Assembly: GCA_944323115.1 (NCBI GenBank)
Contig: CALURG010000077.1
Coordinates: forward strand, 1 to 51,157
Direction of reading: 5' to 3'
Length of the DNA: 51,157 nucleotides
DNA from: Candidatus Gastranaerophilales bacterium
GTDB taxonomy: Bacteria > Cyanobacteriota > Vampirovibrionia > Gastranaerophilales > Gastranaerophilaceae
Each line of letters begins with the position of its first letter. The first letter of the stretch is position 1. This document shows positions 2,268 to 30,746 of the stretch, piece by piece. Below the pieces are notes generated by a model. It had not been told where the DNA came from and ran no database searches. It worked only from the letters and a program-made list of their open reading frames with translations. A program made the translations under genes and the position numbers.

Positions 2268-3938
2268 ATGTTTATTTTACCGTTATCTAATATAAAGTTT
2301 TATCAAAATTATAATTCGCAAAATAGAAATAATATTAATTTCTCATATTTAAAACCACTAAGTTGTGACAGTTTTTCATTTAAAGGTAAAATTTCAAAAA
2401 ATCTTTTTGACAATTATAAGCCTGTTTTGAAAAAGCTTGGCAATAAAGGCTTAACTGTTCATAACAATGAAATTGCAAAAAGACTTCTTCCTGAATATAC
2501 AAAAGAATCTTTCCAGAATTTGTTTGATTTTGCTTTAGACAATGGCGTATACGATTTAAATATTGATAAAAAAACACACTTCATAAAAACCAGTTTGATA
2601 GATAAAAAAGAAAATCCGTTGATGGGAAAGCTCATATGGGTAACTGACAGTTGCAGATATATGCCAATAGTAAAAGACAGATATCCTGATGCAGCAGTAC
2701 CTTTGATGGAAAATATAGGAAAGTATTATTCTGTACAAAAGAGAGCATTGAATGCTATTATCAATAATCCTCTGAAATATGAATTGAATCACGATTATGC
2801 AAACACATCAAAGAATGGTGCAGGTCATGTTTTTAATCCTGCAAATCTAAAATCTCACAAGTGGTTTCCAAAAACGAGACTGGACTCTATGGGGCTTTAT
2901 TTGCAAACAATGGGTGATTTGATATATGAAGGCATTGAAAGTGGTGCCGCATATGGTTATAAATCGGCAAAACAATTATCCAAAGATTCTATAGAGGCTG
3001 TTGCAAATATAACGGCTTATCTAAAAAATATAATTTATCCGTATGCAAAATCAACCGGTGCTTGGGAAGAAAAAACTTTTGAAATTACTCCTTCCAGTGA
3101 TGTTGCTATTATAAATGAAGGATTCAGAAAGATTATAAATCTTATGTACTCGCCAACCGAAAACAAAGAACTTTTAAAAGTTAGAGATAGAATTTTGAAT
3201 GCACAAAACGGAAAAGTTTTTAAAGATGAAAAAGGTATTCGAGATTTACTTTCTTGGGGAGAAGAAAGAATAAAATCAAACAGCAAAAGAGAAGTTCCAT
3301 ATAGAGATGAACGTTCTTTGGATGGGGCATTAAGTTTTATCCCCCACACAGAAAAGTTCAGTGATGATGTTATTATTAATGTGAAAGAAATATTTAAACG
3401 CATGAAGGTTCTTGAAAAAGGTAATGATACCAGCAGAGAACTGGTCAGGAAAAACGGCGTTTTAAGGTATGCAAAAGACAGGTATTTGAATCTTACTGCC
3501 GGGCATAAAATAAATGAAGCCCAAAATTTACTTGAAGGTACAGAAGCACAGTGGTTTATGACAAGTGATATATCTAAAAGCTATGGAATGGCTGCAAAAC
3601 AATTGTTGGAAAAAATAGAAAAATCAAATAAGACTGACAAATCTGTAAGTAAGCTTTTACAAAAAGCTATCCAAAAAGAGACGGAATATATAAATAGAAG
3701 TTATGCAAGAATTACGGGTGAAAATTCTTACAAAGCTAATGAAAAGCCTTGTCCTGCTTTTCAAATACCAGAGGCTTATCAGGCAGTGAAAAATTCAAAT
3801 GGTAAAATTGTTTTTGTACCTGGCACTCATACGCCGCTTGGCTGGGCACAGGCTTCTTTGTATGATGCATCAAAACTTTTTGCTGAAAATTTATCCAAAA
3901 TAGAAGAATTTCAAAAAAGGCAGATTTTAACTTTTTAA
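2268..3938 (+). CDS. GH15/phosphorylase-kinase-like (alpha/alpha)6 protein with SFKG tag
   Basis: This 556-residue protein is not a textbook family member but shows a run of landmarks of the glycoside hydrolase 15 / phosphorylase kinase alpha-beta fold, in the right order: WVTDSCR (124-130, compare WVRD), RLDSMGLYL (204-212, compare QVDATSLYL), GAWEE (264-268, compare GMWER), a basic NGVLRYAKDRY (396-406), an acidic EAQW (426-429) and PLGWAQASLYDASKLFAE (523-540, compare the WGQSLY..LAE end). Glu residues remain near both catalytic positions, so glycosidase activity is possible but unproven. There is no signal peptide; instead the N-terminus has an FSFKGK tag at 36-41. The ATG at 2268 with AGGAG at 2252-2256 is preferred over an upstream start at 2196 that would overlap rarA. 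It follows rarA and ends before a terminator. Confidence 0.6.
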   Translation: MFILPLSNIKFYQNYNSQNRNNINFSYLKPLSCDSFSFKGKISKNLFDNYKPVLKKLGNKGLTVHNNEIAKRLLPEYTKESFQNLFDFALDNGVYDLNIDKKTHFIKTSLIDKKENPLMGKLIWVTDSCRYMPIVKDRYPDAAVPLMENIGKYYSVQKRALNAIINNPLKYELNHDYANTSKNGAGHVFNPANLKSHKWFPKTRLDSMGLYLQTMGDLIYEGIESGAAYGYKSAKQLSKDSIEAVANITAYLKNIIYPYAKSTGAWEEKTFEITPSSDVAIINEGFRKIINLMYSPTENKELLKVRDRILNAQNGKVFKDEKGIRDLLSWGEERIKSNSKREVPYRDERSLDGALSFIPHTEKFSDDVIINVKEIFKRMKVLEKGNDTSRELVRKNGVLRYAKDRYLNLTAGHKINEAQNLLEGTEAQWFMTSDISKSYGMAAKQLLEKIEKSNKTDKSVSKLLQKAIQKETEYINRSYARITGENSYKANEKPCPAFQIPEAYQAVKNSNGKIVFVPGTHTPLGWAQASLYDASKLFAENLSKIEEFQKRQILTF

Positions 3939-3965
3939 TTAATACTCTTACTTAATGAGATGTAG

Positions 3966-3997
3966 TAAAAAGACCTCAATATTTTGAGGTCTTTTTA
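3966..3997. terminator. bidirectional rho-independent terminator
   Basis: The inverted repeat AAAAAGACCTCAA / TTGAGGTCTTTTT lies between two convergent genes. An A tract on the left and a T tract on the right allow it to work on both strands. Confidence 0.85.
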
Positions 3998-4014
3998 TAG
4001 GTTTTGTATTTTTC

Positions 4015-5892
4015 TTAGGCTTTGAAAAACGGTACACTGACAAACTCTTCATCAAAAGAAGGCTTTTTGTCTACAACTTTGCAGATAACTCTTTCTTCCT
4101 GTGTTTTCGGACTCAATTTGACAGTATACTCTTTGCTTGCCAGTTTTGCTCTGAACAGACCTTCAGTTGTGTAGCCTGTCGGCTCAAAACGATTGTCTTT
4201 TGAAAGCAAAACAGGATATTTTAAATCGGTTTTGATAAGGAATTTGTGAGGCAGCAAAACCGTATATTTTTTGTTCATATCAATAGGTTCAAATTCTTGA
4301 GTATCGATGTTTCTCATTTTTACTGCTTTTGCATATTTATCCAAATCAACTTCGTATTTGCCCAGACCGTCTTTTTCTCTCAATCTTGCAATCATGTCTT
4401 TGTCAATTTTTGTATCTGACCATTGAAGCAAAGTGTTTCTTTTGGGCGAATCAAGGTTGTCAAATACATTTTCGACAATTACACCCACGAGCTCTCTGCC
4501 GGTAATTTCACCTTTTGACAATCCTGCAAGATCTTCACTTACACCGTTAAATATTTCCATAAGGTCAATATTTGTCATTCCTTTGTGGAAGCCGCCTCTG
4601 ATTGCGGAAGACTGGATTGCAACGGAAGCTATATCACTGTCTATTTTTGCTCTTGCAGCCGAAGCGTCATAAGAAGACACAATGTTTGCAACATAATCAT
4701 TGTAGCCTCTGATGTTTGTTTCATCATATGGAATTTCTGTGTAAATTTCATTGTTGAATTTGTCTTTTAGAGGTTGATAATCTATAACGTCAGGGGCCGG
4801 TATTGCATCTTTCGGAAGCAGTTTTTCTATAAGCTGTTGTGTAATAGTGTTGTGTTTGTGGTTTTCGGAATTGTAAATAGCTGTGTCATAGTTAGTTTCC
4901 TGAACTCTTTTTAAATCACCGTTGTCGTCAAAATACAATTGGAATGCTTTTACGAGTTCATTGTCTTTTCCGAGTGAATGAATTGCTGTTTTGTTTACGT
5001 GTGACACCTGGCGTTTGTGGTCGTGTCCGTTCATAACTATATTTATGTGTTTTACATCTTCACAAATCCAGTTTGAAATCTGGTTTCCCGTGTGAGATAA
5101 GAGAATTACTGCACCTTTCGGGTATTCTTTTTTAAATGCATCAACCCTTTTCTTAACTGCAACGATTGTTTCTTTCAGGTCTTCTTTTTTTAATTTTGCG
5201 TCTTTTTTGTTGCTGTTGTCATGGAATTCCGTTCCTTTTAACAATCCCGGTGCGTAAAAATCCATTGTCGGAATAGTTACGCCGAGTACCAAAACTTTTC
5301 TGTCAAAGTTTCTGTCATCAAGATGTTTGTCATCGGGAATAGAAATTATTTTTGACTGAACAAATTTTTCAGGATATTTTTTCATATAATCTCTCAAAAT
5401 AGGAGATTTGCCCATATTGGCGTTTGTTACAAGTGTTGTATAAACAGAGTCTTTTGATTTATCAAGAATATATTCGTCACCGTTGTCAAAATCGTGGTTG
5501 CCGTATGTTCTTAATGCGTAGAACTGTGAGTCTTTTCCGACTTCTTTTTTTGCAGCCTTTTCAGCAATTTTGGCTATCATGTCTATAAAATAGAGCTGAT
5601 AGTCGCCGTTTTTCTTTGTTTTGTCTGATATATAATTGCCGCCGCCTTCATTTATTCCAAAGTCTCCGGCATGGATTATCATATTTGCGACACTTCTGGG
5701 ATCCATTTTTTTTGAAGGGTCTTTATAATCTGTTTTTTCAAAAATATCTTTTTGGTTAGTTGTGATAGCTGATTCTACCCACGGTGTTCTTACAAATTGT
5801 CCGTGTGTGTCAGACATAGCTACAATGTTTAATCTTGCTGCTTTAAATGAAGCATTGTTGTTGCGATGTGTGGAAATGTTGTTTACTTTCAT
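4015..5892 (-). CDS. 5'-nucleotidase-family metallophosphoesterase with SFKA tag
   Basis: This is a two-domain enzyme of the 5'-nucleotidase/UDP-sugar hydrolase type, which removes phosphate from nucleotides using two metal ions. The N-terminal calcineurin-like domain shows SDTHG (27-31), HAGDFG (75-80), GNHDFD (131-136), LLSHTG and NGHDHKR, the full metal-ligand set. The C-terminal nucleotide-binding domain contains the typical AIRGG followed by a downstream Asp. Length (625 aa) is normal. Relatives are usually exported, yet there is no signal peptide; the protein instead opens with a short polar stretch and ASFKA at 14-18, like the SFKG proteins elsewhere in this window. The ATG at 5892 has GAGAG upstream. 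Nucleotide or cyclic-nucleotide specificity cannot be read from the sequence. Confidence 0.85.
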   Translation of the reverse strand: MKVNNISTHRNNNASFKAARLNIVAMSDTHGQFVRTPWVESAITTNQKDIFEKTDYKDPSKKMDPRSVANMIIHAGDFGINEGGGNYISDKTKKNGDYQLYFIDMIAKIAEKAAKKEVGKDSQFYALRTYGNHDFDNGDEYILDKSKDSVYTTLVTNANMGKSPILRDYMKKYPEKFVQSKIISIPDDKHLDDRNFDRKVLVLGVTIPTMDFYAPGLLKGTEFHDNSNKKDAKLKKEDLKETIVAVKKRVDAFKKEYPKGAVILLSHTGNQISNWICEDVKHINIVMNGHDHKRQVSHVNKTAIHSLGKDNELVKAFQLYFDDNGDLKRVQETNYDTAIYNSENHKHNTITQQLIEKLLPKDAIPAPDVIDYQPLKDKFNNEIYTEIPYDETNIRGYNDYVANIVSSYDASAARAKIDSDIASVAIQSSAIRGGFHKGMTNIDLMEIFNGVSEDLAGLSKGEITGRELVGVIVENVFDNLDSPKRNTLLQWSDTKIDKDMIARLREKDGLGKYEVDLDKYAKAVKMRNIDTQEFEPIDMNKKYTVLLPHKFLIKTDLKYPVLLSKDNRFEPTGYTTEGLFRAKLASKEYTVKLSPKTQEERVICKVVDKKPSFDEEFVSVPFFKA

Positions 5893-5982
5893 AATAATTT
5901 CTCTCTATTGAATAAATTACAGTACATACCATTGTATAAGTAACATAAAAAAAATTTTTGTTATTAAAAAAGTAAATTTTTG

Positions 5983-6906
5983 TTAAGTCAATTTGTTTTT
6001 TTCATCAATGGCTTTTATAAGTTCAAAAAACAAAGAATTGTAGGGTGTTTGAAGGCTGTGTTTTTGTGCGAGTTTTTTTATGTAACCTGAAAAGATATCA
6101 ACTTCCGTTTCTCTCTTTGATTCAACATCTTGCAGCATTGATGTTTTGGTTTCGGGAATCATTGCTTTTATGACGGATTCTATTTCAGGTATTATATTTT
6201 CCGTTTTATTTACTCCTTCTGCTTTTGCAAGTGCTACAGCTTCTTTCATAAGGTTAACGGCAACGGAATTTGTTTTTTCGGAATTCTGAAATTCTCCGTA
6301 ATTTGCCCTTAAAACAGCAGAAGCCTGATTGTAGCCTACATTCAGTATAAACTTCCACCATCTGGAATAGTCCATATCTTCCGGTATTTCATAATTAATA
6401 CCGGTTTTATCAAAAAAGTCTTTGACTCTTTTCACATTTTCTGAATAATTTTTGTTGCTTTTTTCGCCAAAAACGGTTGTGTACACACCGTCATGAGTAA
6501 TTGATCTTCCGTTTCTAGTACTTGCATGGCCTATAAAATATGAGTATAAAACCTTGTCTTGGCCAAAAGACCGGGAGATTACATCTTCACTTTCTATACC
6601 GTTTAGCAAAGATATTATTACTGTATTTTCTGAAACAAAGTTCTTTATGTCTTTTATTACATCATTTAGGCCGTTATTTTTTGTTGCAATTATAACAAAA
6701 TCGGCTGACCAGTTTTCTTCCGGTGTCAAAAAATTAAATTTGTATGATTTACCGTTAAAAACAGTAGGATTTTGAGTGTATTTTTGAATTCTTTCTTTAT
6801 CAGCAAGAATTTTCAGGTTAACTTGCGGTTTGTCAAAAAGCCTGGCGGCGTATATAGTACCGATTGCACCTATGCCGCATATTAATACATTTTCAATTTT
6901 TTTCAT
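5983..6906 (-). CDS. 2-dehydropantoate 2-reductase-like protein (PanE/ApbA family)
   Basis: Members of this family reduce ketopantoate to pantoate with NADPH in the pantothenate/CoA pathway. The nucleotide-binding loop is GIGAIG at residues 11-16. The catalytic-region lysine lies in RWWKFILNVGYN. The C-terminal signature SMLQDVESKRETEVD matches the family consensus S-M-x-Q-D-x(4)-R-x-T-E-I-D. Length, 307 residues, is typical. The gene starts four bases after the SIMPL gene stop, so the two form one minus-strand unit. Several paralogues of PanE act on other 2-oxo acids, and no other pantothenate gene lies nearby, so I leave the symbol open. Confidence 0.85.
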   Translation of the reverse strand: MKKIENVLICGIGAIGTIYAARLFDKPQVNLKILADKERIQKYTQNPTVFNGKSYKFNFLTPEENWSADFVIIATKNNGLNDVIKDIKNFVSENTVIISLLNGIESEDVISRSFGQDKVLYSYFIGHASTRNGRSITHDGVYTTVFGEKSNKNYSENVKRVKDFFDKTGINYEIPEDMDYSRWWKFILNVGYNQASAVLRANYGEFQNSEKTNSVAVNLMKEAVALAKAEGVNKTENIIPEIESVIKAMIPETKTSMLQDVESKRETEVDIFSGYIKKLAQKHSLQTPYNSLFFELIKAIDEKNKLT

Positions 6907-6910
6907 AAAT

Positions 6911-7660
6911 TTATTTTATTGTAAAAGTGGCATTTACAACAGCATTAATTTTCTTTTCTTTTGCATTTGTGTTGTAGATACCGTAGTCAGATACATCAGT
7001 TGAATCTTTTGCAACTATTTGGAATACTCCCATTTTTGCGGAATTCATTGCACCTATTTTCCCTCCGGTGCTTTCAACCATGCTTTTTGCACGTTGTTTT
7101 GCATCTTTTGTTGCTTCTGCAAGCATTTTTATTTTAAGTTCATCAAGGTTTGAGACAAAATATTCAACAACATTTGACGTAAGTTCAACATTCTTTTCTA
7201 TCAACTTTATTGAATCTTGAGATATTGTTGTTATTCCGTTTACATCGGAAGAAGAAACTTCTACATTTTGAGAAAGTCTGTAGCCGTCAATTTCATTTGA
7301 ATCATATCCGTTACTAAGTTTTTTATATACAGGATAAGAAGACACAGGAGTAAATTTTATATCTTCTTCTTTCATACCGTTTGCTATCAAAAAGTTTTTC
7401 ACATTGTTTTTATCGTTATTAATTTTTGTATAACCTGATTTCAAATCTTTGCTTCTGACTTCATAGTATGCTTTCCACACAGCCAAATCCGATGATACAT
7501 TTTGGCTGGCTGAACCAGTCACAGTAAGTGTCTGGTTTTGGAGTTTTTGGTAGGAAACAACAGCGTGTGAAAACAAAAATGTTGAAACAATTGCACCTAT
7601 AGCAATTATTAGTCCCAGCAAAACTATTTGATAATCTTTTATTTCTCTTAAATCTTTCAT
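6911..7660 (-). CDS. SIMPL-domain (DUF541) membrane-anchored protein
   Basis: A single N-terminal membrane anchor (about residues 10-32, IVLLGLIIAIGAIVSTFLFS) is followed by a SIMPL domain starting with TVTGSASQNVSSDLAVW. The C-terminal part carries the usual ATKDAKQRAKSMVESTGGKIG segment. SIMPL proteins assemble into periplasmic or surface oligomers, and their function is mostly unknown. An AGAGGT ribosome site precedes the ATG at 7660. It is the first gene of a two-gene unit with the PanE-like reductase. The pairing has no obvious biochemical logic. Confidence 0.85.
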   Translation of the reverse strand: MKDLREIKDYQIVLLGLIIAIGAIVSTFLFSHAVVSYQKLQNQTLTVTGSASQNVSSDLAVWKAYYEVRSKDLKSGYTKINNDKNNVKNFLIANGMKEEDIKFTPVSSYPVYKKLSNGYDSNEIDGYRLSQNVEVSSSDVNGITTISQDSIKLIEKNVELTSNVVEYFVSNLDELKIKMLAEATKDAKQRAKSMVESTGGKIGAMNSAKMGVFQIVAKDSTDVSDYGIYNTNAKEKKINAVVNATFTIK

Positions 7661-7710
7661 GTTTACCTCTTTTTTGTTTTTGATAAATTATAAAATATTT
7701 TTTTATTTTT

Positions 7711-7719
7711 TGCTATCAT
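7711..7719 (+). promoter_or_regulatory. extended -10 promoter, likely leaderless start
   Basis: TGCTATCAT is an extended -10 box that ends seven bases before the ATG at 7727. No Shine-Dalgarno site fits between them and no good -35 is visible. Confidence 0.45.
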
Positions 7720-7726
7720 CTATATT

Positions 7727-8071
7727 ATGATATTAAGACAATTTTTACCTGTAATTCTTTTAACTATATCAAATATATTTATGACATTTGCCTGGTACGG
7801 GCATCTCAAGTATAAAGGTTCGGCCCTTTGGCTTGTTGTTCTGGTAAGCTGGGGCATTGCGTTTTTTGAGTACTGCTTTCAGGTTCCGGCAAACAGAATA
7901 GGACATGAATTTTACGATGCAGCACATTTAAAGACTATACAAGAAGTAATTACCCTGATTGTATTTTGTTTCTTTTCAGTGTTTTATTTAAAAGAAGAAA
8001 TAAAATGGAATTATATTGTAGGATTTTTATTTATAATACTGGCAGTATTTTTTGTATTTAAAAAATGGTAG
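7727..8071 (+). CDS. DUF486 (DMT-like) small membrane protein
   Basis: A 114-residue protein with four predicted membrane helices and the DUF486 signatures WYGHLKY near residues 24-30, SWGIAFFEYCFQVPANRIG near 41-59, and the C-terminal half ending in a hydrophobic segment and FKKW. DUF486 proteins resemble single-repeat members of the drug/metabolite transporter superfamily and may act as dimers; substrates are unknown. The ATG lacks an upstream Shine-Dalgarno sequence and sits just behind an extended -10 box, so the mRNA may be leaderless. The stop codon lies inside the left arm of the following terminator. Confidence 0.85.
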   Translation: MILRQFLPVILLTISNIFMTFAWYGHLKYKGSALWLVVLVSWGIAFFEYCFQVPANRIGHEFYDAAHLKTIQEVITLIVFCFFSVFYLKEEIKWNYIVGFLFIILAVFFVFKKW

Positions 8072-8095
8072 GTTGTTTAGACCTACCATTTTTGA
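8060..8095. terminator. bidirectional terminator
   Basis: A hairpin with arms ATGGTAGGT and ACCTACCAT around a TGTTTAG loop, flanked by A and T tracts. It overlaps the end of the DUF486 gene and serves the convergent Spy-like gene too. Confidence 0.85.
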
Positions 8096-8106
8096 TATAT
8101 GCTTGA

Positions 8107-8709
8107 TTATTTCTTGTCATGACAAGGGCATTTGCAATTAGCCTGATCAGGTGCATCTGCCTGCGGGTTGTGGCAGTTGCATCCGCAGTCAGGAGGACAC
8201 ATCGGTTTGTGATGATGTCTCGGGGGAAGCGGTCTTCCATCAGGTCCCATCGGAGGTGCCATCCTTTGCATTTCTGCTTTCATTTCTTCTTTGATTTTTG
8301 TCAATTCTGCCAACTGTTCAGGTGTCAAAAGAGCTTCGAATTTTTTCATGCTTTCCATGCGGATGTTGCGTTCTTCTTTAAACAATTCTGCTATTTTTGC
8401 ATGTTCTTGTTCGATTTTTTCTCTGTAAGGAGCAAGTTGTTTTCTTTCTTCAGCTTTGATTTCTTCAAGCTGTTTTTTCTGTTTGTCTGTAAGTTTTAGT
8501 CTTTCTTCAAATTCAGCTTTCTTTTGTTCTCTGAATTTTTCACGTTCTTCCATAGTCATCGGTTTTTTGCATTCTTTGAAAGCCGGTTTGTCACACTGAG
8601 GCTTATCTTGTTTCAATGGACATGCAGCAGAAGCCGGAGATGCAATAAAAGCACCTGACACAAGAGTCATTGCACCAATTAACATTGAAGACAATAACAG
8701 TTTTTTCAT
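8107..8709 (-). CDS. Spy/CpxP-like periplasmic protein with Cys/His-rich tail
   Basis: A cleavable signal peptide (residues 1-29, ending SPASA before ACPL) leads to a helical, highly charged domain. It includes two LTxxQ-type elements, LTDKQKKQLEEI and LTPEQLAELTKI, the hallmark of the Spy/CpxP chaperone and metal-stress family. The last 40 residues are unusual: an HHH cluster, then CPPDCGCNCH and CKCPCH. The mature protein has ten cysteines in all, three of them before the helical domain. Such a tail could bind metal (zinc, copper, nickel) or form disulfides; that is inference. AAGGAGG precedes the ATG. The gene has its own long upstream region with a perfect hairpin, and no partner gene is adjacent. 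Confidence 0.7.
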   Translation of the reverse strand: MKKLLLSSMLIGAMTLVSGAFIASPASAACPLKQDKPQCDKPAFKECKKPMTMEEREKFREQKKAEFEERLKLTDKQKKQLEEIKAEERKQLAPYREKIEQEHAKIAELFKEERNIRMESMKKFEALLTPEQLAELTKIKEEMKAEMQRMAPPMGPDGRPLPPRHHHKPMCPPDCGCNCHNPQADAPDQANCKCPCHDKK

Positions 8710-9044
8710 TTTTCCTCCTTTTGGTTTGAGACCAAATTTTATGTTAAAATTACTGTCTGATTCTCTATTTTTGTATATATTAAGTTTTCTTAATATAAAT
8801 AAAATTTAAACTGACAGTGCATATAACAAGTATATTAATCTTTTTGCTACTGTCAATAACTCAAATATCTTACTTTTTACTTAGATGTAATAAATGGTAT
8901 AAAAAATGTACTAAAGTAAAACAATCAGTTGAAAGAAACATCAATTAATTTACCTGAAAAATTAAAATAAAAAATGCCTGAGTGGCTAATATCTATTTAG
9001 ATATTGATTAGTTTATATTATTAACAATACAAATGAGGTGTGAT
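8710..9044. promoter_or_regulatory. divergent intergenic region with two perfect inverted repeats
   Basis: This spacer between the Spy-like gene (minus) and a response regulator gene (plus) has no coding sequence. It holds two AT-rich dyads: 9-bp arms TATATTAAG/CTTAATATA with a TTTT loop at 8776-8797, and 8-bp arms AATATCTA/TAGATATT at 8988-9005, just upstream of the regulator. They could be operators. The second sits where it could mediate autoregulation. Confidence 0.4.
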
Positions 9045-9713
9045 TTGAATTCTGAAAACAAAATTTCTATTTATCTTGTAGAAGATTATCTGCTTATAAG
9101 AAAGTCTCTTGTTTATATGTTGAAACAAAATAAGAAGTTTAATATTTTAGGCGACTTTGAAAGTGCCGAAGATTTTTTGGATGTGTTTAGAAAAAAGCCT
9201 TCTGATATAGTTATTATGGATCTTGGACTGCCCGGTATAAACGGACTTAAGGCTACTTTGAAAGTGAAAGAAATCTCTCCTGATACAAAGGTTATTATTT
9301 TAACTTCACATGAAGAAGAGAAGGAGGTTATGGCGACACTGTCGGCAGGGGCAAGTGCTTACTGTTTGAAAGATGTTGCTTCAAACGAACTGGCAAGAAT
9401 TATTACGGATGTATACAGAGGTGTTGTATGGCTTCATCCTCAAATATCACATGTTGCAAACAGCAAAATGCCCAAACCTGTATCCACTGATTTAAATTCT
9501 CTGTATGAAATCAATAAAGATTTGAATTTGACAGAACGTGAGCTTGAGACTTTACATCTTGTAGTCGAAGGCAAAACAAACAGCGAAATTGCTCAAAAAA
9601 TGAATATAAGCTCTCACACGGCAAAAGCACATGTTGGAAGCATTTTGAATAAACTTTCAGTATCTGACAGAGTTCAGGCCGCAGTGAAAGCAGTCAGAAC
9701 AAAGATAGTATAA
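9045..9713 (+). CDS. NarL/FixJ-type response regulator
   Basis: An N-terminal receiver domain shows the acidic VED, the phospho-acceptor Asp in IVIMDLGLPG (residue 59 from this start), a Thr/Ser in ILTSH and Lys in CLKD. It is joined to a LuxR-type helix-turn-helix (LTERELETLHLVVEGKTNSEIAQKM, then SSHTAKAHVGSILNKL). I prefer TTG at 9045, because GAGGTG at 9035-9040 lies just upstream; the ATG at 9033 (four residues longer) has no ribosome site. No sensor kinase gene is adjacent, so this is an orphan regulator. It is closely similar in layout to the regulator at 14991. Confidence 0.9.
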   Translation: MNSENKISIYLVEDYLLIRKSLVYMLKQNKKFNILGDFESAEDFLDVFRKKPSDIVIMDLGLPGINGLKATLKVKEISPDTKVIILTSHEEEKEVMATLSAGASAYCLKDVASNELARIITDVYRGVVWLHPQISHVANSKMPKPVSTDLNSLYEINKDLNLTERELETLHLVVEGKTNSEIAQKMNISSHTAKAHVGSILNKLSVSDRVQAAVKAVRTKIV

Positions 9714-9726
9714 AATTGCCTGAATT

Positions 9727-10302
9727 TTACAAATTCATTTTGTCCATTATTTTTTGCAATTCTCGTACGTTTTGATGAATATCAGAAAAAACTTTTTTTA
9801 TAACAGCTTTTGTAAATTCAGATTCGGGGTTATTTTTTGAAAAAGGAATAAAATAAAGGTCCATTTCAAGCCCGCCGCCGTTGTTCGGGTAAAAGTACCT
9901 GCACTCCAATTTTTTTGCACCCAGTTTAGTATAAAAATTTATTCTTCTTATTGTATCTGGATTTTTTGTGTCAGGTTTTTCTATTTCTGCGTAAATACCT
10001 TTGTATGTTGAAAAAGTTCTTTGTAATTCAGAAAAAATTTTTTTTCCGTACCCTCCGGATTGGAAAGCTTTTTTTACGGCAACATAATCAAGCCATAAAA
10101 ATTTTTCTTCTTCGCTGCAATAAACAACAGTATAACCGACTGTTTTTGTGTCGTCTTTTGCAATATAGAGCCTGTAGTTTTCTTTTGAAAAAAGTTTTTT
10201 AAAATCACTAAAAGATTTCAGTTCTGCCGCAGGAAACTGTTCTTTCATATCTTTGTATATTTCATCAAAGTCACAAAAATTTTTTCTTTCAAGACAGAGC
10301 AT
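9727..10302 (-). CDS. GNAT-family N-acetyltransferase
   Basis: The acetyl-CoA-binding core is visible in LWLDYVAVKKAFQSGGYGKKIF: a beta-4 strand, a V-A-V motif and an R/Q-x-x-G-x-G/A-like pyrophosphate loop (QSGGYG). A following segment FYTKLGAKKLECRYFYP is the usual beta-6/7 region. The acceptor substrate cannot be told; the 191 residues include a C-terminal helical extension with no recognised domain. AAGGA lies upstream of the ATG at 10302. The gene stands alone, convergent with the response regulator; a weak AT hairpin at 9721-9737 lies between them and overlaps the stop. Confidence 0.8.
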   Translation of the reverse strand: MLCLERKNFCDFDEIYKDMKEQFPAAELKSFSDFKKLFSKENYRLYIAKDDTKTVGYTVVYCSEEEKFLWLDYVAVKKAFQSGGYGKKIFSELQRTFSTYKGIYAEIEKPDTKNPDTIRRINFYTKLGAKKLECRYFYPNNGGGLEMDLYFIPFSKNNPESEFTKAVIKKVFSDIHQNVRELQKIMDKMNL

Positions 10303-10385
10303 AATGTCCTTCTTCTTTTTTACCGGATTAATTAGATATTACCATATATAAGAATTAATGCGGCAAATTTTCTGCTTTTCTTTTG

Positions 10386-10394
10386 TGCTATAAT
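10386..10394 (+). promoter_or_regulatory. extended -10 promoter
   Basis: TGCTATAAT is a perfect extended -10 box 35 bases before the chosen ATG at 10430. The predicted transcript start near 10401 leaves GGAGA at 10416-10420 as the ribosome site. No -35 is evident. Confidence 0.55.
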
Positions 10395-10429
10395 CTATTA
10401 TGGTCGAAAGTTTTGGGAGAGAAGATTTA

Positions 10430-10798
10430 ATGAAATCGTTTTTTATTTTTTCTGCTGCTGTGGTTTTACTTTTTTCACCTGTTTTTGCTTCATCAATGTT
10501 TGATGATGACGGAAATTATACAGGTAAGTGGAAGCAAATGACAAATGTTTCGTCATCCGGCTCGTCTTCCCGTTACAATAGCAGTAATTATTCATCTTCG
10601 GCCTGGTATATAAATAATAATAAACAGCGTACACAAAACAAAAAAGCAGCTTATACAAATCAAAATGTGCATAACATGGATGTAATGCCTTTTCGTTATA
10701 ACACTCTGGACTATACAAGAGTCAGAAAGGTCAAAGGCGGATATGGCGAGTATAGTGCCAGATGCTCTGATATAGGTGATGTGAGTTTTTGTCACTAA
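10430..10798 (+). CDS. small secreted protein of unknown function
   Basis: A 122-residue protein beginning with a signal peptide (MKSFFIFSAAVVLLFSPVFA, cleavage likely after FASS or FA). The mature part is rich in Ser, Asn and Tyr (SSSGSSSRYNSSNYSSS) and ends in a motif with two Cys near the C-terminus, CSDIGDVSFC, that could form a disulfide. The ATG at 10430 is chosen over one at 10400 because it fits the GGAGA ribosome site and gives a clean signal peptide. I recognise no family. It has its own promoter and no obvious partner. Confidence 0.6.
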   Translation: MKSFFIFSAAVVLLFSPVFASSMFDDDGNYTGKWKQMTNVSSSGSSSRYNSSNYSSSAWYINNNKQRTQNKKAAYTNQNVHNMDVMPFRYNTLDYTRVRKVKGGYGEYSARCSDIGDVSFCH

Positions 10799-10923
10799 GC
10801 AGCAGGTTTAAGTTCTCTGCAAGGTTCTGAATACAGCATTATCATTACGGCAAGGACTTTCTATTGATTAAGAAGAAAGTAAAATTGTAGTTTTAACAAT
10901 GTGCCGGACAGTATTCTTAATAT

Positions 10924-10954
10924 TTGACTTAGAGCTGCTATTAAGTAGTAATAT
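10924..10954 (+). promoter_or_regulatory. candidate promoter upstream of YkgJ-type gene
   Basis: TTGACT (10924-10929), a 19-base spacer and TAATAT (10949-10954), ending nine bases before the ATG at 10964. The spacer is a little long. If used, the mRNA would be leaderless or nearly so. Confidence 0.35.
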
Positions 10955-10963
10955 GTATTTGAT

Positions 10964-11578
10964 ATGGAATTTATAGACATTGCACTAAAAAATTATGAAA
11001 CTTATCTAAAGTTTTTGGATTCAAAATTAAAAAAGTTCTTTGAAAGCCAAAAACCTTTTATTTTCTGCCAAAAAGGCTGTGCAAAATGCTGTAAAAAAGC
11101 ACAATTCCCTTATTCTTTATTGGAAATGAAGTATCTTTTGACCGGTTTTGTGCTGCTTGATAAAGAGACACAGCAAAAAGTTGAAAATAATTTGCAGGAA
11201 ATCGTAAACAAAAGGAAAAAATATAAGGGTAAAAAATTCAAGTATGACTGCCCGTTTCTGGTTGATGATAAGTGCTCGGTTTATAAGTACAGAGGTGTAA
11301 TATGCCGTACATTCGGGTTGATGACCCAAACTCTTGACGGGAAGATAAAATCACCATTTTGTTCCGCATTGGGCTTGAATTATTCGAATGTACTAAACTC
11401 AAAAAAAACAAACATTTCTGTCAGAAAATATAAAAAACTCGGTGTAAAAGAAGAGCCTTTAGGTTTTAATATAAGCTACAAATATCTGACAAGCGAAGAC
11501 TATGAAAGAAGTTTCAATCTGATGTTCGGTGACAAAAAACCTCTAATCGAGTGGTTTATTGAAAATAATCCAAAATAA
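10964..11578 (+). CDS. YkgJ-family cysteine-cluster protein
   Basis: The protein has the YkgJ/CxxCxxCC signature: CQKGCAKCCKK near residue 35, then CPFLVDDKCSVYKYRGVICRTFG with three further Cys, and PFCSALGLN downstream. The family is thought to bind a metal or iron-sulfur centre; the biochemical role is generally unknown. Length (204 aa) is at the upper end for the family, with a C-terminal helical part. No ribosome site precedes the ATG. Neighbours give no functional hint. Confidence 0.8.
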   Translation: MEFIDIALKNYETYLKFLDSKLKKFFESQKPFIFCQKGCAKCCKKAQFPYSLLEMKYLLTGFVLLDKETQQKVENNLQEIVNKRKKYKGKKFKYDCPFLVDDKCSVYKYRGVICRTFGLMTQTLDGKIKSPFCSALGLNYSNVLNSKKTNISVRKYKKLGVKEEPLGFNISYKYLTSEDYERSFNLMFGDKKPLIEWFIENNPK

Positions 11579-11642
11579 AAACAAACTGTCTTAAACACAA
11601 GCAAGTTAAAATATATCCGACAGGCATGAGTGAATAAAATAG

Positions 11643-13291: not shown

Positions 13292-13346
13292 GATATTCTC
13301 CGTTGTTTGGTCTGATTTACTGAAAAATTATAATACATTGCAGTGT

Positions 13347-13366: not shown

Positions 13367-13367
13367 T

Positions 13368-18465: not shown

Positions 18466-18472
18466 ATTTAAT

Positions 18473-20673: not shown

Positions 20674-20752
20674 CAAAAATTCCCCTAAAAATCTAACTAT
20701 TGCAACGATTATACATCTATGTTGAGATTTAAGGCAATTTATTAAAAATAAG

Positions 20753-22597: not shown

Positions 22598-22853
22598 ACA
22601 AACAATTTATCATAAATTTGTATAACTTTTTACTGGCCGGTAAGATTTTTTATATACCCTTTTGTGTAATATCACATAATGCCTGTAAAATCTTTAAAGA
22701 AAATTAAAAATGTTGTATTATAGTTTTATTAAATTATGCAAGAAAATTCGTGATAAAGCTTGTCTGTCTTTTACGCTATCGATAAGAGCAGAAAGCTTGA
22801 AACGGCAGAGTTAATATAAGATTAGATAAAACAAAATGAGAAAGGAGTTTTTT
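22598..22853. promoter_or_regulatory. divergent intergenic region upstream of alcohol dehydrogenase
   Basis: No gene is seen. TATTAT near 22714 could be a -10 box for the plus strand. A less AT-rich leader at 22751-22810 holds AAAGCTT twice (22755-22761 and 22792-22798), a self-complementary TATCGATA and an AAACGGCAGAG end, which may fold into a 5' leader structure. I recognise no riboswitch class. Confidence 0.25.
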
Positions 22854-24065
22854 ATGTGGGAAAAAGATATAAATATTAATCAAACACTTGAAATAAGAGT
22901 AAAAACAAATGTGTTTTTCGGAGTCGGTGCAATTTCAAAAATAGAAGATATCGCAAAAGAATTAAAAAATAAAGGTGTAGACAAGGTTATTGTAGTCAGC
23001 GGCAAAGGTGCCTACAAAATTACCGGTGCTTGGGATTATGTTGAAAAAGCATTAAACAACAATGGTATCGGCTATATCAACTATGCAAAAGTTACGCCAA
23101 ATCCGACAACTGCGGCTATTGATGAGGCAACAGCACTTGCAAAAGATTTTGGTGCCAAAGCTGTAATAGCAATAGGCGGTGGTTCTCCAATCGATACTGG
23201 TAAAAGCGTTGCAATTCTTATGGAATACAAAGATAAAACAGCCGCCGAACTTTATGAATTTAAGTTTACACCTGAAAAGGCAGCTCCTATTGTTGCAATA
23301 AACCTAACACACGGCACGGGAACAGAAGTCAACAGGTTTGCGGTTGCAACAAATCTTGAAAAGAACTTTAAACCGGCAATTGCTTATGATTGTATTTACC
23401 CGTCTTATTCCATAGATGATCCGCAATTGATGACAAAGCTGTCTAAGAATCAAACATTGTACACTTCAATAGATGCTGTAAACCATGTAGTCGAAGCAGC
23501 AACATCAACTGTTGCTTCCCCTTATGCAATTACTCTGGCAAAAGAAACAATCAGACTTGTTGCAAATTATTTACCAAAAGCAGTCGAAGATTTGGAAAAT
23601 CCTGAATACAGATATTATCTTTTGTATGCATCATTATTGGGCGGTGTCGGATTCGATAACGGACTTTTACACTTTACACATGCTCTGGAACATCCTTTGA
23701 GTGCAGTGAAACCTGAACTGTCACACGGACTTGGACTTGCTATGCTGCTACCGGCTGTTATAAAAGCAATATATCCTGCAAAAGCAGCTACACTTGCTGA
23801 TATTCTTGAACCGATTGCTCCGGGCTTGAAAGGTACTGCTGATGAAGCTGAAAAAGCCGGAAAACTCGTCGAAAAATGGCTTTTTGAAGTTGGCGTTCCT
23901 CAAAAACTGAAAGATGACGGTTTCTGTGAAGAAGACGTGGAAAAACTCGTAGATTTGTGTTTCACTACACCGTCATTGGATGGGCTTCTTGCTATCGCTC
24001 CTATCGAAGCGACAAAAGAAGTTGTTGCACAGATTTACAAAGATTCATTGTACCCTTGTAAATAA
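22854..24065 (+). CDS. iron-containing alcohol dehydrogenase
   Basis: A group III (Fe-dependent) alcohol dehydrogenase of 403 residues. The N-terminal Rossmann-like part has VIVVSGKGAY, VIAIGGGSPIDTGKS (the nucleotide-binding GGGS motif) and THGTGTEVN. The C-terminal metal-binding part shows SIDAVNHVVEAA, LHFTHALEHPLSAV and ELSHGLGLAMLLP, providing the Asp and three His ligands. It probably interconverts short-chain alcohols and aldehydes with NAD(P), a fermentation step. ATG 22854 is chosen over 22836 because AAGGAG (22842-22847) lies six bases ahead. Confidence 0.93.
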   Translation: MWEKDININQTLEIRVKTNVFFGVGAISKIEDIAKELKNKGVDKVIVVSGKGAYKITGAWDYVEKALNNNGIGYINYAKVTPNPTTAAIDEATALAKDFGAKAVIAIGGGSPIDTGKSVAILMEYKDKTAAELYEFKFTPEKAAPIVAINLTHGTGTEVNRFAVATNLEKNFKPAIAYDCIYPSYSIDDPQLMTKLSKNQTLYTSIDAVNHVVEAATSTVASPYAITLAKETIRLVANYLPKAVEDLENPEYRYYLLYASLLGGVGFDNGLLHFTHALEHPLSAVKPELSHGLGLAMLLPAVIKAIYPAKAATLADILEPIAPGLKGTADEAEKAGKLVEKWLFEVGVPQKLKDDGFCEEDVEKLVDLCFTTPSLDGLLAIAPIEATKEVVAQIYKDSLYPCK

Positions 24066-24439
24066 TCTGTATTTTAACATCCGGATTTGATAGGTGCCGG
24101 TTTTCTTTTCTTTGGTTCGTTTCTTTTCTTTTGCCTGCACAATACAAAAGAAAAGAAATGAACATGTAAAAAACAAATTACATTTTGTGATTTTTGTTCT
24201 ACCCGCTCTTTATCGTAAAGAGGCGAATTACGTACGGGTACGTCGTGTAAGTAAAACGAACCCGGTGCCTTTGTGTTCCATAATCACGCTTCTGGCGAAC
24301 GCCCGTACTTCAAGACTGCGAAATCGGGCTGGGATGAAACGAAGCGAAACGCTTCTTACAAATGTCTGATTCCGCCTTTTGGGGATACAATCTGGCTCCA
24401 GGACAGAACCCTGTTTCTCTTGTGTACAAGTGGGGGTGA
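24066..24439. other. G+C-rich, hairpin-rich non-coding island
   Basis: This stretch is visibly richer in G+C than its surroundings, especially 24200-24440, and holds many short perfect hairpins. They are TTTCTTTTCTTTTG/CAAAAGAAAAGAAA (24120-24159 region), CTCTTTA-TCG-TAAAGAG (24206-24222), ACGTAC-GG-GTACGT (24230-24243), GCCCG..CGGGC (24301-24329), GAAGCG-AAA-CGCTTC (24341-24355) and CTTGT-GT-ACAAG (24419-24430). Several overlapping frames are open, but none looks like a protein. It may be a dispersed repeat or a structured RNA; I cannot tell which. Confidence 0.4.
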
Positions 24440-24577
24440 ATTAGGTATATTAGTCAGTTAAATAAATTTCCAAAATTACAAAATCTAAGATTTGATGATT
24501 TAAAAAGTTATTTAAAAAATAACGAAGAAGTTTTAAGCTCCATACAAGAACAACTCGGCAGAATTATTGCAAAGTAA
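24440..24577 (+). pseudogene. 45-codon gene remnant or tiny gene with no standard start
   Basis: The frame reads IRYISQLNKFPKLQNL, RFDDLKSYLKNNEEVL, SSIQEQLGRIIAK, then stop; it is convincingly helical and protein-like. It opens right after an in-frame TGA at 24437 and contains no ATG, GTG or TTG start, so it looks like the C-terminal remnant of a lost gene. A GGGGGTGA just upstream is Shine-Dalgarno-like, and an ATT start cannot be excluded. It directly follows the hairpin-rich island, which may mark an insertion or deletion junction. Family not recognised. Confidence 0.35.
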
Positions 24578-24628
24578 GATTCCTTGCATAAAGCCGTCAA
24601 ATTATAAATTAAATTTTTAATAAGGCAA

Positions 24629-24665
24629 AAACAGCCGGCAAAAAAGCCGGCTGTTTGGTCTTTTT
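24629..24665 (+). terminator. strong terminator-like hairpin
   Basis: Eleven-base arms AAACAGCCGGC and GCCGGCTGTTT around an AAAAAA loop, followed after GG by a T run. It would end any transcript from the island or remnant and insulate gyrB. Confidence 0.8.
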
Positions 24666-24743
24666 GATGTTTGCTGCAAATTCCGGTACAAATTCTCGGA
24701 TAATCTTCTTTACAAATTAGTTTAATCTTCTTGTTTGTAGTAA

Positions 24744-27233
<2,490 letters not shown>

Positions 27234-27247
27234 ATAGTAGAATTTTG

Positions 27248-27290
27248 AAAAGTTAACCATTATTTTTTGAATAATGGTTAACTTTTGTTT
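27248..27290 (+). terminator. rho-independent terminator of gyrB
   Basis: Perfect 16-base arms (27248-27263 and 27271-27286, core GTTAACCATTAT) around a seven-base loop, followed by a short T-rich tail. Confidence 0.85.
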
Positions 27291-27414
27291 CATAAATTTT
27301 ACTTTGGTAGCAAAAAATTTTTTTTTGTTTTTTATAAATGCTTGTTGAAAGACATTAATAATTTTAAAAGTCTTTTAAGTAAAGAAACATAATTTTTATA
27401 AGATTGGAGAAAAA

Positions 27415-28053
27415 ATGATTTTACCTGTTAATAGTTTCAACAGTAATGTATCAAACCAAAATATGTCATTCAAAGGCAAATGGAATGTTTTAAGCTGTGC
27501 TTTTGACAGAAGCAAACGTTTGGATAGTGATGTTTTGTCCAAATATTTACAATTGTCTAACAGACAAGTCAATGAAGAATTGTCTCAAGGAATCAACAAT
27601 CCTATTTTGAAGATAGCAAAAAGATTTAACAGACATAAAAACGGTTTTTTGTATAGACTTGCAAAAAAATATAACAGTGAAATGTTCGACCAGCGTATTA
27701 CAAACCCGGACGAAACAAGACAAATTATTTATAACATTTACGACAGTGTAAAATATCCTGGCAAAGTTCATAAAAAAATAGTTACATCTACAGATGCGAC
27801 ATTTGCACAACTACAGACAATTTTTAAAAAGACAGAAAAAAATCCCGATCTTTTAAAACTTGCCGACAAAGTTATTTCTGTATATGAGTCAACTGTATAC
27901 AAAGATATTCCTTATTCTGTTTTAACAAGATTTTTGTATTCACATTCCGCTGATAAAATTCTAAAAAACTTTGATTCGTATAAGCCTTTTATAAAAAACT
28001 CTATGAAACACAATAACATTGAAGAGTTTTTTAAATCTTTAAATACTAAGTAA
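27415..28053 (+). CDS. SFKG-tagged helical protein, function unknown
   Basis: A 212-residue basic, mostly helical protein. Its N-terminus, MILPVNSF followed by an Asn/Ser-rich stretch and MSFKGK (residues 17-22), matches the pattern of the proteins at 2268 and 28191. No signal peptide or membrane helix is visible, and I recognise no domain. A GGAGA site precedes the ATG. It precedes another SFKG protein by about 140 bases in the same orientation. Confidence 0.6.
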   Translation: MILPVNSFNSNVSNQNMSFKGKWNVLSCAFDRSKRLDSDVLSKYLQLSNRQVNEELSQGINNPILKIAKRFNRHKNGFLYRLAKKYNSEMFDQRITNPDETRQIIYNIYDSVKYPGKVHKKIVTSTDATFAQLQTIFKKTEKNPDLLKLADKVISVYESTVYKDIPYSVLTRFLYSHSADKILKNFDSYKPFIKNSMKHNNIEEFFKSLNTK

Positions 28054-28190
28054 ACTTTTGTATAGTTCTTGTTTAGATATAGCAAAAAGTATTTTTAGCT
28101 GTTTTGTATAACAGTGAGAGATTTTAGGCATGCATTAATACTTTAAAAATATTTTTGTTTGACTTAAAATATAATTTTCAAAGGCAGCGG

Positions 28191-30746
28191 ATGAAAGTGA
28201 AAATTACGAATCAAATTGATACATCTCAAGCTATTAAGCGAAAAGAGTTTCGCGAGATTTCTTACAACCTTGCAGAGAGTCTGCCGGATTCGTATAAACA
28301 TAAGCAAATAAATACACAAAATAATAGTATTCAAAAACCCTTGAAAGAAGGCATACAGCCGCAGATATCTTTCAAGGGTTTTAAGTTTACACAGGGAATT
28401 AACAAAGTAATAAAACCGATAATAAGGCCGATACCCCAGAAACTTACCCAAAAAGTTTTTCATTCTCTTGAAAATATAAGCACTTCTCAATATGAATATT
28501 ATTCAAGAGTCAGAAAAGATTATGTTGATTTAATTAAATTGCCAACAGGCAAGACTGATGATGCAAAAGAACTCTTGAAAAGGAAAATAGCCGCTTCGTT
28601 CAGAAAAAAAAACGGAATATCTGATGAAATAGCGAAAAATATATCAGAAGAAAATCTTTATTACCTGCCCAAAAAGACACTTTGGATGAATTTTTTCTAT
28701 CAGCTAATTGCACCGTTTCGATTTATTTACAAGGGCATTGAAAAAATATTTGTGTCAAACAATTCTGATAAAGCTAAAGAAATAGCAAGACAAAAAAAGA
28801 TTCTGAAAGATTTTAACAGTTTGCAGGGATTGATAAAATCTCATGAAATTTGGGAAAACGGATATCGTAAATTGAGCGGTCATCCAAAATGGACAAAAAA
28901 CAGTGATTTTATTATTCCCGACAGAATTTTATCAGGAAAAATAAAAAGGCGAAGAAACAAATTTGTCGATCCAAACAAAGGTAAATATTCATCTACATCA
29001 ATGATGCTTGGCAACAGGTTTATCTCAGGTATCATCTATTCGTATTTTTTGGGGACTGACGCTTACAATACGACAATGCGATACAGTAACGATAAGCACG
29101 AAGCTTCGGCACAAAGGTCTTCCCGTGTTGCACAGGAATTCTCTCGTATAGGTTTGAATATGTACATTCAAAATCTTCTTTTCGGTACGTTTGAGACTGC
29201 CGTTAACAGAAGTTTGGCCAGTGCAATGTTTGTTTCCGGCTCAACTGTCGCTTTTTCGGAGGTGCTGGGAAGAAAATTGGTAGGAAAGCCAATAATGCCT
29301 TCCGACAAAGAAACTCTGGACAGGCTTGAAAATGAAATGTATGAGAAAAAAGGTATTTTACCGGCAATAGGTAAAATGCTTACAAATGTAAAGAAGAAAG
29401 AGACCGTAACAAAAATAAAAATAACTGATACATCAAAATCTTATTACCCTAAAACATCTCCAAATAAAAATTTATTTTCTTCTTTCTGTGCAAAACAAAA
29501 CATTCAGCATACAGATGTTTCATCCGGCTTAAATAAACCGTCATTCAAAGGGTATTACAAAGTTGAATATCTTTTTAATAAAAATAATATTTCTAAAATA
29601 ATAAAAATAGTGGAGAATGCTGATTCAAAAACCGCTGCTTCTCTAAAGGAAGCAATATTAAACTCTGTCAAAAACTCTGAATATTTTAAAACACACAAAA
29701 TTCATATACCTGAAACATTTGATGAGTTGCTTAATAATAGTGCCGTCAATGAACTTCCTGTTGGTACAAAAAATACTTTGTCCGGCCGTTTGACATCCAG
29801 TGTTTTTGTTCCTGTAAGGTTTGTAAAAAACATATTTGTTTCAGCCGGTAAAAAGATTAAAAAACTTTATGACAAAACAACCGGAAATACAAAAGATAAT
29901 CTTTCAAAACAGCTGGATAGACTGCTGTCCGGAAATGATAAAAATTCAAAGGCATTTTTGAATTACAAAGAAAAAATGATGAAAGAACAGGCATGGGCAA
30001 AATCAAGTTTATCGGAAAGAGAAAAAGCCCGCAGAATATTGAAAGAATTTAATGATTTGTCAAAAAAAGAGAAAGAAGATATAGAAGGGGCAAAAAATAT
30101 TATACTATGGCTCGGTAAACAGTTTGAAAAAGAAAATATAAAAATTCGTGAAGACGGTACACTCGACGCTGATTCAATGAAAAAAGTCAGAGATATTTTG
30201 ATGTCTTCCGTTCTGAAAGCTGATTGTGCAAAGCACGTTGAGTATGACGGAAACACTCTTGCACAAACAAATATAAATCTCTCAAGAGCAATCACTACAT
30301 TATTTTTGATGACCGATGCTTACAATTTGACAATGCAATACAGCAACGATAATCGCAAAGAAGCAAACAAAAGTGCGAAAAACAGAGCCGCTCAAGAAAT
30401 TTCCAGAATAAGCGTTTCTGCTTATATATTGGCATTTGTTCACAATTTGCTCTCAAAACTCTGTAACTCAAGCCTCGCCGGTGCATTTACTCTTACTGCA
30501 ATCACTTCTGCTATCAATGATTCCATTTCAAGACAAGTGGTCGGTGTACCGCTTACGGCAAAAAGTAAAGATGAATTACTGGAATTAGACAAAAAGAATG
30601 CAGAATCTAAGAATCCCGTAAAAAAAGCACTTGCTTATTCAATAGGTAAAAAATCAGCTTTGCCGCAGAAATCAGATAACAGTTCAAATTCCAAAGAATT
30701 AGACTATTTTTCAAATGACTTTTTCATAATGCCGGAAATCAACTAA
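28191..30746 (+). CDS. internally duplicated SFKG protein, function unknown
   Basis: An 851-residue protein made of two related units. Each opens with an SFKG motif (residues 60-63 and 451-454) and contains a core in which TDAYNTTMRYSND (289-301) matches TDAYNLTMQYSND (708-720). In both, a RxAQExSRI segment and a hydrophobic 50-residue stretch follow, ending VxGxP. The hydrophobic stretches could be membrane-associated helices. ATG 28191, with AAGGC upstream, is chosen over a TTG at 28155. It ends with its TAA overlapping the stop codon of the convergent gene. No family is recognised, and the protein may be specific to this lineage. Confidence 0.6.
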   Translation: MKVKITNQIDTSQAIKRKEFREISYNLAESLPDSYKHKQINTQNNSIQKPLKEGIQPQISFKGFKFTQGINKVIKPIIRPIPQKLTQKVFHSLENISTSQYEYYSRVRKDYVDLIKLPTGKTDDAKELLKRKIAASFRKKNGISDEIAKNISEENLYYLPKKTLWMNFFYQLIAPFRFIYKGIEKIFVSNNSDKAKEIARQKKILKDFNSLQGLIKSHEIWENGYRKLSGHPKWTKNSDFIIPDRILSGKIKRRRNKFVDPNKGKYSSTSMMLGNRFISGIIYSYFLGTDAYNTTMRYSNDKHEASAQRSSRVAQEFSRIGLNMYIQNLLFGTFETAVNRSLASAMFVSGSTVAFSEVLGRKLVGKPIMPSDKETLDRLENEMYEKKGILPAIGKMLTNVKKKETVTKIKITDTSKSYYPKTSPNKNLFSSFCAKQNIQHTDVSSGLNKPSFKGYYKVEYLFNKNNISKIIKIVENADSKTAASLKEAILNSVKNSEYFKTHKIHIPETFDELLNNSAVNELPVGTKNTLSGRLTSSVFVPVRFVKNIFVSAGKKIKKLYDKTTGNTKDNLSKQLDRLLSGNDKNSKAFLNYKEKMMKEQAWAKSSLSEREKARRILKEFNDLSKKEKEDIEGAKNIILWLGKQFEKENIKIREDGTLDADSMKKVRDILMSSVLKADCAKHVEYDGNTLAQTNINLSRAITTLFLMTDAYNLTMQYSNDNRKEANKSAKNRAAQEISRISVSAYILAFVHNLLSKLCNSSLAGAFTLTAITSAINDSISRQVVGVPLTAKSKDELLELDKKNAESKNPVKKALAYSIGKKSALPQKSDNSSNSKELDYFSNDFFIMPEIN

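Follow-up and report, generated by a model that had tools for sequence, protein, structure and literature searches.

An Asn-rich leader ending in a Phe motif is shared by unrelated proteins of the Gastranaerophilaceae and may be an export signal

Why do proteins with unrelated bodies begin with the same few residues? This question is raised by a stretch of 51,157 nucleotides from a Candidatus Gastranaerophilales bacterium (GenBank assembly GCA_944323115.1, contig CALURG010000077.1; hereafter the window), which is contig 77 of a 1.88-Mb genome that is 93.5% complete. A reading made from the letters of the window (the sequence-only reading) had reported six [ST]FK[GA] strings in five genes, and all six were found where it had placed them. 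It described them as a short tag on N-terminal segments. We found that the tag exists, is enriched in proteins of the family Gastranaerophilaceae, is conserved in orthologues and is not seen in our outgroup sample. It is a real tag, though with a wider form than SFKG: the Phe motif had been recognized correctly, while the form S/T-F-K-G/A was too narrow and should read F[KTGSR][GAS], preceded by an Asn-rich leader. It looks like a sorting tag with an unusual shared consensus, so far unnamed, and in the literature, as far as it was accessible, we found no report naming such a motif.

We sampled 40 stretches of 20 kb, one each from 40 family genomes, and added 80 gyrB loci, 397 kb of the window's own genome and 40 more stretches that were held out. 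Genes were called with a simple purpose-made predictor, so start codons are estimates; proteins below 80 amino acids (aa) were left out of the score and tail tests, and those below 90 aa out of the head-and-tail tests. Leaders were ranked by a tag score that was hand-weighted on 15 leaders after the held-out head-and-tail result had been seen, with a cut-off of 3.2 chosen after the first scoring run; part of the data had thus already been seen when the score was set. By this score, 58 of 2985 predicted family proteins, belonging to 40 protein families, were tagged, compared with 5.3 in shuffled sequences (maximum 13 in 100 shuffles). The excess was present in the exploratory subset (33/1892 vs 3.11 shuffled) and in the held-out subset (17/709 vs 1.25). 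Among the 2356 proteins of at least 170 aa, 46 scored a match at the N-terminus, against 2.7 in internal segments. The motif occurred 26 times near N-termini, where ten control motifs occurred 0-8 times; internally it occurred 18 times vs 2-40 for the controls, with no overall internal enrichment. The window itself had 4 of 43 proteins at the cut-off (shuffled mean 0.12, maximum 3 in 300), and the rest of the own-genome sample had 4 of 341 (mean 0.61, maximum 4). Because the window was chosen for looking enriched, the family-wide counts weigh more than those of the window.

The tail of the tag, [PVI][SN]F[KT][GA], was also counted alone. It was present in 13 of 1166 clusters vs 3.2 shuffled (maximum 8 in 100), and it ranked first among its 120 permutations (next 9, median 2), although this form was derived from the score matches and is hence not independent of them. 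The literal string fared less well: [ST]FKG within the first 70 residues was found in 4 of 404 own-genome proteins vs 0.69 shuffled, but the maximum in 300 shuffles was also 4. SFKG standing alone is too weak to count as evidence, because orthologues keep the layout while the letters vary. Simple permutations of FKG and FKA gave no clear excess. A narrow head-and-tail regular expression gave an odds ratio of 11.4 in the exploratory pool (p 6.7e-7, median of 50 draws) and no match in protein families new to the analysis.

The tag has a recognizable layout, in which an acid-poor leader rich in Asn, Ser, Pro and Gln, often starting M[KNR][IV]xx[IV], ends in [KN][PVI][SN]F[KT][GAS] directly before a folded domain. 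Across the 40 tagged families the Phe lies at residues 7-61 (median 19). Ile or Val stands at position 3 in 29 families and at position 6 in 22, two preferences that the score itself rewards. Counted from the Phe, -3 is K or N in 20 families, -2 is P in 13 (favoured by the score only via overall composition) and -1 is S or N in 26; +1 is K in 18, T in 9 and G in 5, and +2 is G in 19, A in 12 and S in 7, a small residue in 38/40 that the score favours; beyond +2 there is no clear preference. Leaders picked by the tail alone had more N+S+Q+P (0.365 vs 0.204, p 7e-6), less D+E (0.055 vs 0.109, p 0.008) and more often I/V/L at positions 3 and 6 (4/13 clusters vs 99/1153, p 0.022). No Sec-type hydrophobic stretch (threshold 1.6) was found in the leader of any of the 40 families; such a stretch followed within 80 residues of the tag in 5 families and lay anywhere in the protein in 11. 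The leader is probably unfolded.

The genes of the window that bear on the tag, with their motifs, are as follows.

2268..3938, forward strand: tagged protein of 556 aa, from a family without a solved relative; score 5.2
2376..2387, forward strand: SFKG motif of the 2268 gene
4015..5892, reverse strand: tagged 5'-nucleotidase-like metallophosphatase of 625 aa; score 5.4
5839..5850, reverse strand: SFKA motif of the 4015 gene, its F being residue 16
27415..28053, forward strand: tagged orphan of 212 aa; score 4.8
27466..27477, forward strand: SFKG motif of the 27415 gene
28191..30746, forward strand: tagged orphan of 851 aa with two related-looking halves and a motif copy ahead of each; score 3.5
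28368..28379, forward strand: first SFKG motif of the 28191 gene
29541..29552, forward strand: second, internal SFKG motif of the 28191 gene, kept in 8/8 proteins including that of the window
46377..46388, reverse strand: TFKG string of the 45798 gene, without a leader and outside the tag set; score 1.3

The polar leader described earlier precedes the motif in the 2268, 4015, 27415 and 28191 genes, all scoring above the cut-off, and is missing from the 45798 gene. When the N-termini of relatives were aligned, the layout proved to be conserved for these four genes. In the 2268 family, [STN]F[KGTSE][GKST] was present in 9/9 distinct N-termini, its spacing to the shared domain being variable, and three more relatives had been called from downstream starts; the profile of this gene had no PDB match at E 0.01. 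No relative could be confirmed when contigs were first scanned with the 4015 gene. F-x-[GASQK] was found near the called protein start at 29 of 30 loci of the 4015 gene (window copy included); in the exception, L027, the gene call starts internally, and the call at L032 starts at the motif itself. We aligned 25 metallophosphatases (the window's, those of 23 of the other 29 loci, and L107), and F16 was invariant in all 25 at a mean column identity of 37%. The motif was kept in 4/4 relatives found for the 27415 gene and, at the N-terminus, in 7/7 found for the 28191 gene. The internal copy of the latter, ahead of the second half, reads PSFKGYY in six of the eight proteins, PSFKGYF in one and ISFKGIP in one. 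In a low-confidence predicted structure of the 28191 protein, too uncertain for a fold search, residues 1-72 are disordered and more confident stretches begin near 73 and 463. No phage DNA resembling window positions 27415-30746 was found. The TFKG of the 45798 gene comes after about 40 alignable residues, inside an apparently folded domain; the string was kept in one of the two homologues found (L224, 27% identity) and replaced by SDKG in the other (L253). We set this string aside from the tag set and do not claim that it arose by chance.

Outside the family, the score found no tag among 264 proteins from seven other families of the class, including 95 proteins of outgroups f4-f6 (26-36% GC). 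This absence is only suggestive, because the family rate would predict only about 5 tags among 264 proteins. Together with the enrichment over shuffled and permuted controls and the conservation in orthologues, it supports a tag that is lineage-specific to the Gastranaerophilaceae, as the sequence-only reading had supposed.

We then considered what the tagged proteins might do. The 4015 gene has the metal-binding motif residues and the family profile of a predicted 5'-nucleotidase or calcineurin-like phosphoesterase: the catalytic-type residues D28, H30, D77, N132, H133, H267, H290 and H292 were invariant in the 25 aligned proteins, and the profile matched NadN, CD73-type 5'-nucleotidases and SoxB in the PDB, while the single-sequence Pfam match (14.7) stayed below the cut-off of 27. 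We take these solved relatives to be exported enzymes. A Pfam scan of 30 hand-picked tagged-looking proteins, of which 22 reached the score cut-off and 8 did not, left 19 without a match at E 0.01; the others included the following.

L201:16786-18810: LysM, phage lysozyme and Amidase_3; above the score cut-off, over the Pfam threshold
L095:864-3671: two M16 domains; above the score cut-off, over the Pfam threshold
L098:14947-16680: RNase T; above the score cut-off, over the Pfam threshold
L095:9306-10712: C-terminal HNH; above the score cut-off, over the Pfam threshold
L089:1517-4348: GT5-like; above the score cut-off, only just over the Pfam threshold
L102 and L171: methyltransferase and LysM, respectively; weak Pfam matches
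L098:12953, L218:5285 and L017:5929: PLD-like, HNH and TPR, respectively; tag score below the cut-off

These cargo types would point to export, and judged from them the chances that the tag is an export signal seem roughly evenly balanced. The earlier suggestion of a targeting, secretion or anchoring signal fits the 40/40 leaders without a Sec stretch and the normally exported nature of some cargo types.

Other leaders of a similar kind were seen. A second 5'-nucleotidase-like family (L230, L231, L234, L236, L238, L239 and L241) has polar leaders without an obvious Sec signal in the gene calls listed, with VSFKA in the leader of L241. L219:3552-12489 holds a series of small genes, and tag-like leaders are seen on six or seven of these (SFQA, SFGA, SFSS, NFGA, RFGA, NFGK). 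At window positions 37359-37970, a polar Asn/Pro/Gln leader is followed by a hydrophobic helix without a Phe motif, which may be a related leader type.

Our favoured reading, held tentatively and with less than even confidence, is that the tag acts as an export signal at the N-terminus, perhaps read by a flagellar-type III apparatus that has no filament. The leader would stay unfolded, a receptor would recognize the leader start together with the Phe motif, and the tagged protein would be threaded out independently of Sec; the exporter would most plausibly be a second flagellar-type III apparatus, kept even where flagellin has been lost. We surveyed apparatus and exporter genes in 117 family genomes, 100 of them high-quality. 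PF00771 (FlhA/SctV) was found in 116/117 genomes and in 100/100 high-quality ones, the exception (G031) being 63% complete, and FliP gave the same counts, 116/117 and 100/100. Flagellin was found in 49/117 genomes, and in 41 of the 100 high-quality ones (59 without). The PF00771 scores were bimodal. In 48 genomes a match lay at about 848-885 bits; among the other 69, the best match was E 1e-213 or better in 64 (a second type, at 713-736 bits among the matches listed), only partial matches were found in G045, G054, G056 and G067, and one genome had none. The window's own genome has both FlhA types (G000:C74 and G000:C75).

The second type belongs to a flagellar-type III locus (L245-L255; G000:C75:34444-36420 in the own genome) that is distinct from the flagellar one and occurs without flagellin. 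In 11 genomes this locus had FliF-, FliH- and FlhA-like genes in 11/11, those for FliF and FliH being separated by an unassigned gene; 10 also had a FliE-like gene, 3 had FliI and 2 had rod-type genes. The names come from an NCBIfam-type scan for ten proteins and otherwise from inspection by eye. FliO-, FliP-, FliQ- and FliR-like genes were identified by eye at the second-type FliP locus L197. The FlhA of a second locus (L245:9378-11474) missed both NCBIfam equivalog cut-offs, with 694.6 bits vs 772.1 for FlhA and 586.8 vs 692.25 for SctV, while the own genome's other FlhA passed the FlhA cut-off with 846.4 bits. No injectisome was identified. Tagged-looking genes of 80-114 aa directly adjoin apparatus genes at 3 of 13 loci (L189, L251 and L255), a small number, that of L255 being below the score cut-off.

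Other candidates for a general machine were rejected as absent or rare; type I systems and others were outside this search. VirB4 was found in 0/117 genomes and a contractile sheath in 17/117 (14 over cut-off) with none in the own genome, which does not suit cargo of type IV secretion or of contractile injection. The C39 transporter was found in 14/117 genomes and again not in the own genome. No type I system is reported in the gut types by earlier authors (PMC3787301), and in the literature, as far as it was accessible, we found no report on type III secretion in these bacteria. By elimination, the second flagellar-type III apparatus would be the exporter, an assignment that we consider doubtful. 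Still a little more doubtful is the family-wide version, in which a filament-less flagellar-type III apparatus would be a general secretion system, and the leader with [PVI][SN]F[KT][GAS] the shared address label on dozens of unrelated enzymes and effector-like proteins sent into the gut or into neighbouring cells.

Further proteins related to such machines were noted. Three proteins of 492-593 aa (L302:724-2202, L303:825-2303 and L304:542-2323) have a match to FlhA that is confined to its C-terminal, cytoplasmic part, the transmembrane part of FlhA being absent from the two of 492 aa. Among the matches listed, hits of this kind occur in 37 of 38 family genomes, and none is given for the own genome. 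A protein family that starts M-G-[LMF]-[SA]-A-[SG]-Q-A-R, with coiled-coil-like ends, is present at window positions 44114-44785, at L250:11806-15499 and at L141, L146, L166 and L176. It lies once beside the second export locus and has a weak Pfam match to SPAM, a type III secretion system (T3SS) protein; it might be exported as a substrate of the axial type. Pilin-like proteins with N-termini of the FTLAEVLITLGIIG type were also numerous (L201:2169-5098, L247, L248, L250, L253 and L254).

The tag was compared with known signals. Type III signals are polar, acid-poor, unstructured leaders, and the tag leaders are likewise polar, with disorder seen in one low-confidence model. To our knowledge, the N-termini of injectisome-type T3SS effectors share no consensus; the leaders here resemble them in being polar, acid-poor and probably unfolded, and differ in sharing a motif. 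Double-glycine (C39) and prepilin leaders are short, N-terminal and end near a small residue, as the tag does, but the C39 transporter is rare here, and in 35/40 tagged families the 80 residues that follow the motif contain no hydrophobic stretch. Unlike Sec signal peptides cleaved by signal peptidase I, the tag leaders have no hydrophobic stretch. The gate recognition motif has the form FxxxPhi, and identity of the tag with it is ruled out by the missing excess of hydrophobic residues at +4 and the often short spacing. According to PMC8983047, early flagellar type III subunits carry an N-terminal hydrophobic signal and a gate recognition motif (2SIAV5 and 36FLTLL40 in FlgD), with a minimum of 19 residues between the two signals, and need no chaperone. 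The tagged proteins resemble these subunits, as described there, in having a polar spacer and then a Phe-led motif, and may resemble them in small non-polar residues at the start; they differ in their motif, F[KT][GAS], and in carrying cargo other than rod or hook. By analogy, it is possible that the tag works like an early-subunit signal. Flagellar export genes are also retained without flagella in non-flagellated Lysobacter enzymogenes, where they export a heterologous flagellin (PMC7277350), and in Buchnera (PMC8109811). The accessible parts of these two papers mention no substrate tag, and the pattern here extends across 41 sampled genera.

Several observations weigh against the export reading. 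No export has been observed. The score found no enrichment at fresh loci, which were mostly short and around housekeeping genes (1/333 vs 0.56 shuffled), and a head-and-tail test fixed beforehand was not significant in the held-out stretches (odds ratio 2.45, p 0.23; both parts in 2 cases, the head alone in 16, the tail alone in 23, neither in 451). Hydrophobic residues at +4 show no excess (0.42 vs 0.35 background), and only 18/40 families have the Phe at residue 25 or beyond, so that the spacing of the gate motif is mostly unmet. Co-occurrence of tag and apparatus is uninformative because both are near-universal in the family. Outgroup families carry FlhA of similar score without visible tags, and the export apparatus may therefore be older than the tag. 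The tagged LysM/amidase protein has, by eye, a hydrophobic segment after the tag (1.46, under the threshold), and this peptidoglycan hydrolase might be Sec-inserted. Among the amidase gene calls listed for 30 loci none had the tag and about 12 began with a Sec-like stretch, a comparison in which many calls apparently came from internal starts and L270 gave a different gene. Finally, conserved internal copies are ill-suited to a purely N-terminal signal; they are as compatible with docking or cutting at these sites as with an export signal that a fusion left behind. Because of these copies, the short spacings and the possible tag-plus-membrane-segment protein, we keep anchoring and processing open.

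In the first alternative, which we regard as unlikely but serious, the Phe motif would dock proteins on some structure inside the cell or in its envelope that is specific to the lineage, without causing export. The internal copies conserved in 8/8 proteins of the 28191 family, and the ISFTG at residue 494 between the two halves of the M16 protein, would suit such docking, as would the variable distance of the motif from the N-terminus and from the domain and the 5/40 families with a hydrophobic stretch soon after the tag. Enrichment near N-termini only argues against it, and hydrolase-type cargo would hardly be sensible inside the cell. Distinctly less probable is a propeptide whose leader is cut at F[KT][GAS], the internal copies splitting double proteins into two mature parts. 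The small residue at +2, the second copies at domain borders and the low-confidence 28191 model, whose domains begin about ten residues after each copy, agree with cutting, whereas some families have lysine at +2 and no protease was identified, C39 being the sole protease searched for. It is improbable that the motif is part of the fold or a common N-terminal cap and no signal: the Phe of the metallophosphatases does lie at a constant distance from the first strand, so that in these enzymes alone it could belong to the fold, but the distance varies in the 2268 family and the motif is common to 40 unrelated families. An origin by chance from the composition of AT-rich genomes, whose N-termini are rich in Asn and Lys, for which the small [ST]FKG counts, the FKG/FKA permutations and the failed held-out test might speak, is highly improbable given the shuffled, permuted and internal controls, the conservation in orthologues and the untagged f4-f6 outgroups.

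If the tag is an export or sorting signal, its presence on about 2% of the sampled proteins (58/2985, about 5 by chance) means that the exported or sorted proteome of these mostly uncultured gut bacteria, many orphans included, would be readable from genomes. Their flagellar gene sets have been called incomplete or possibly under ongoing reduction in two studies (PMC3787301, PMC5877343). If a filament-less apparatus reads the tag, this would explain why such 'partial' flagellar gene sets are retained, and type III export would gain a recognizable consensus signal.

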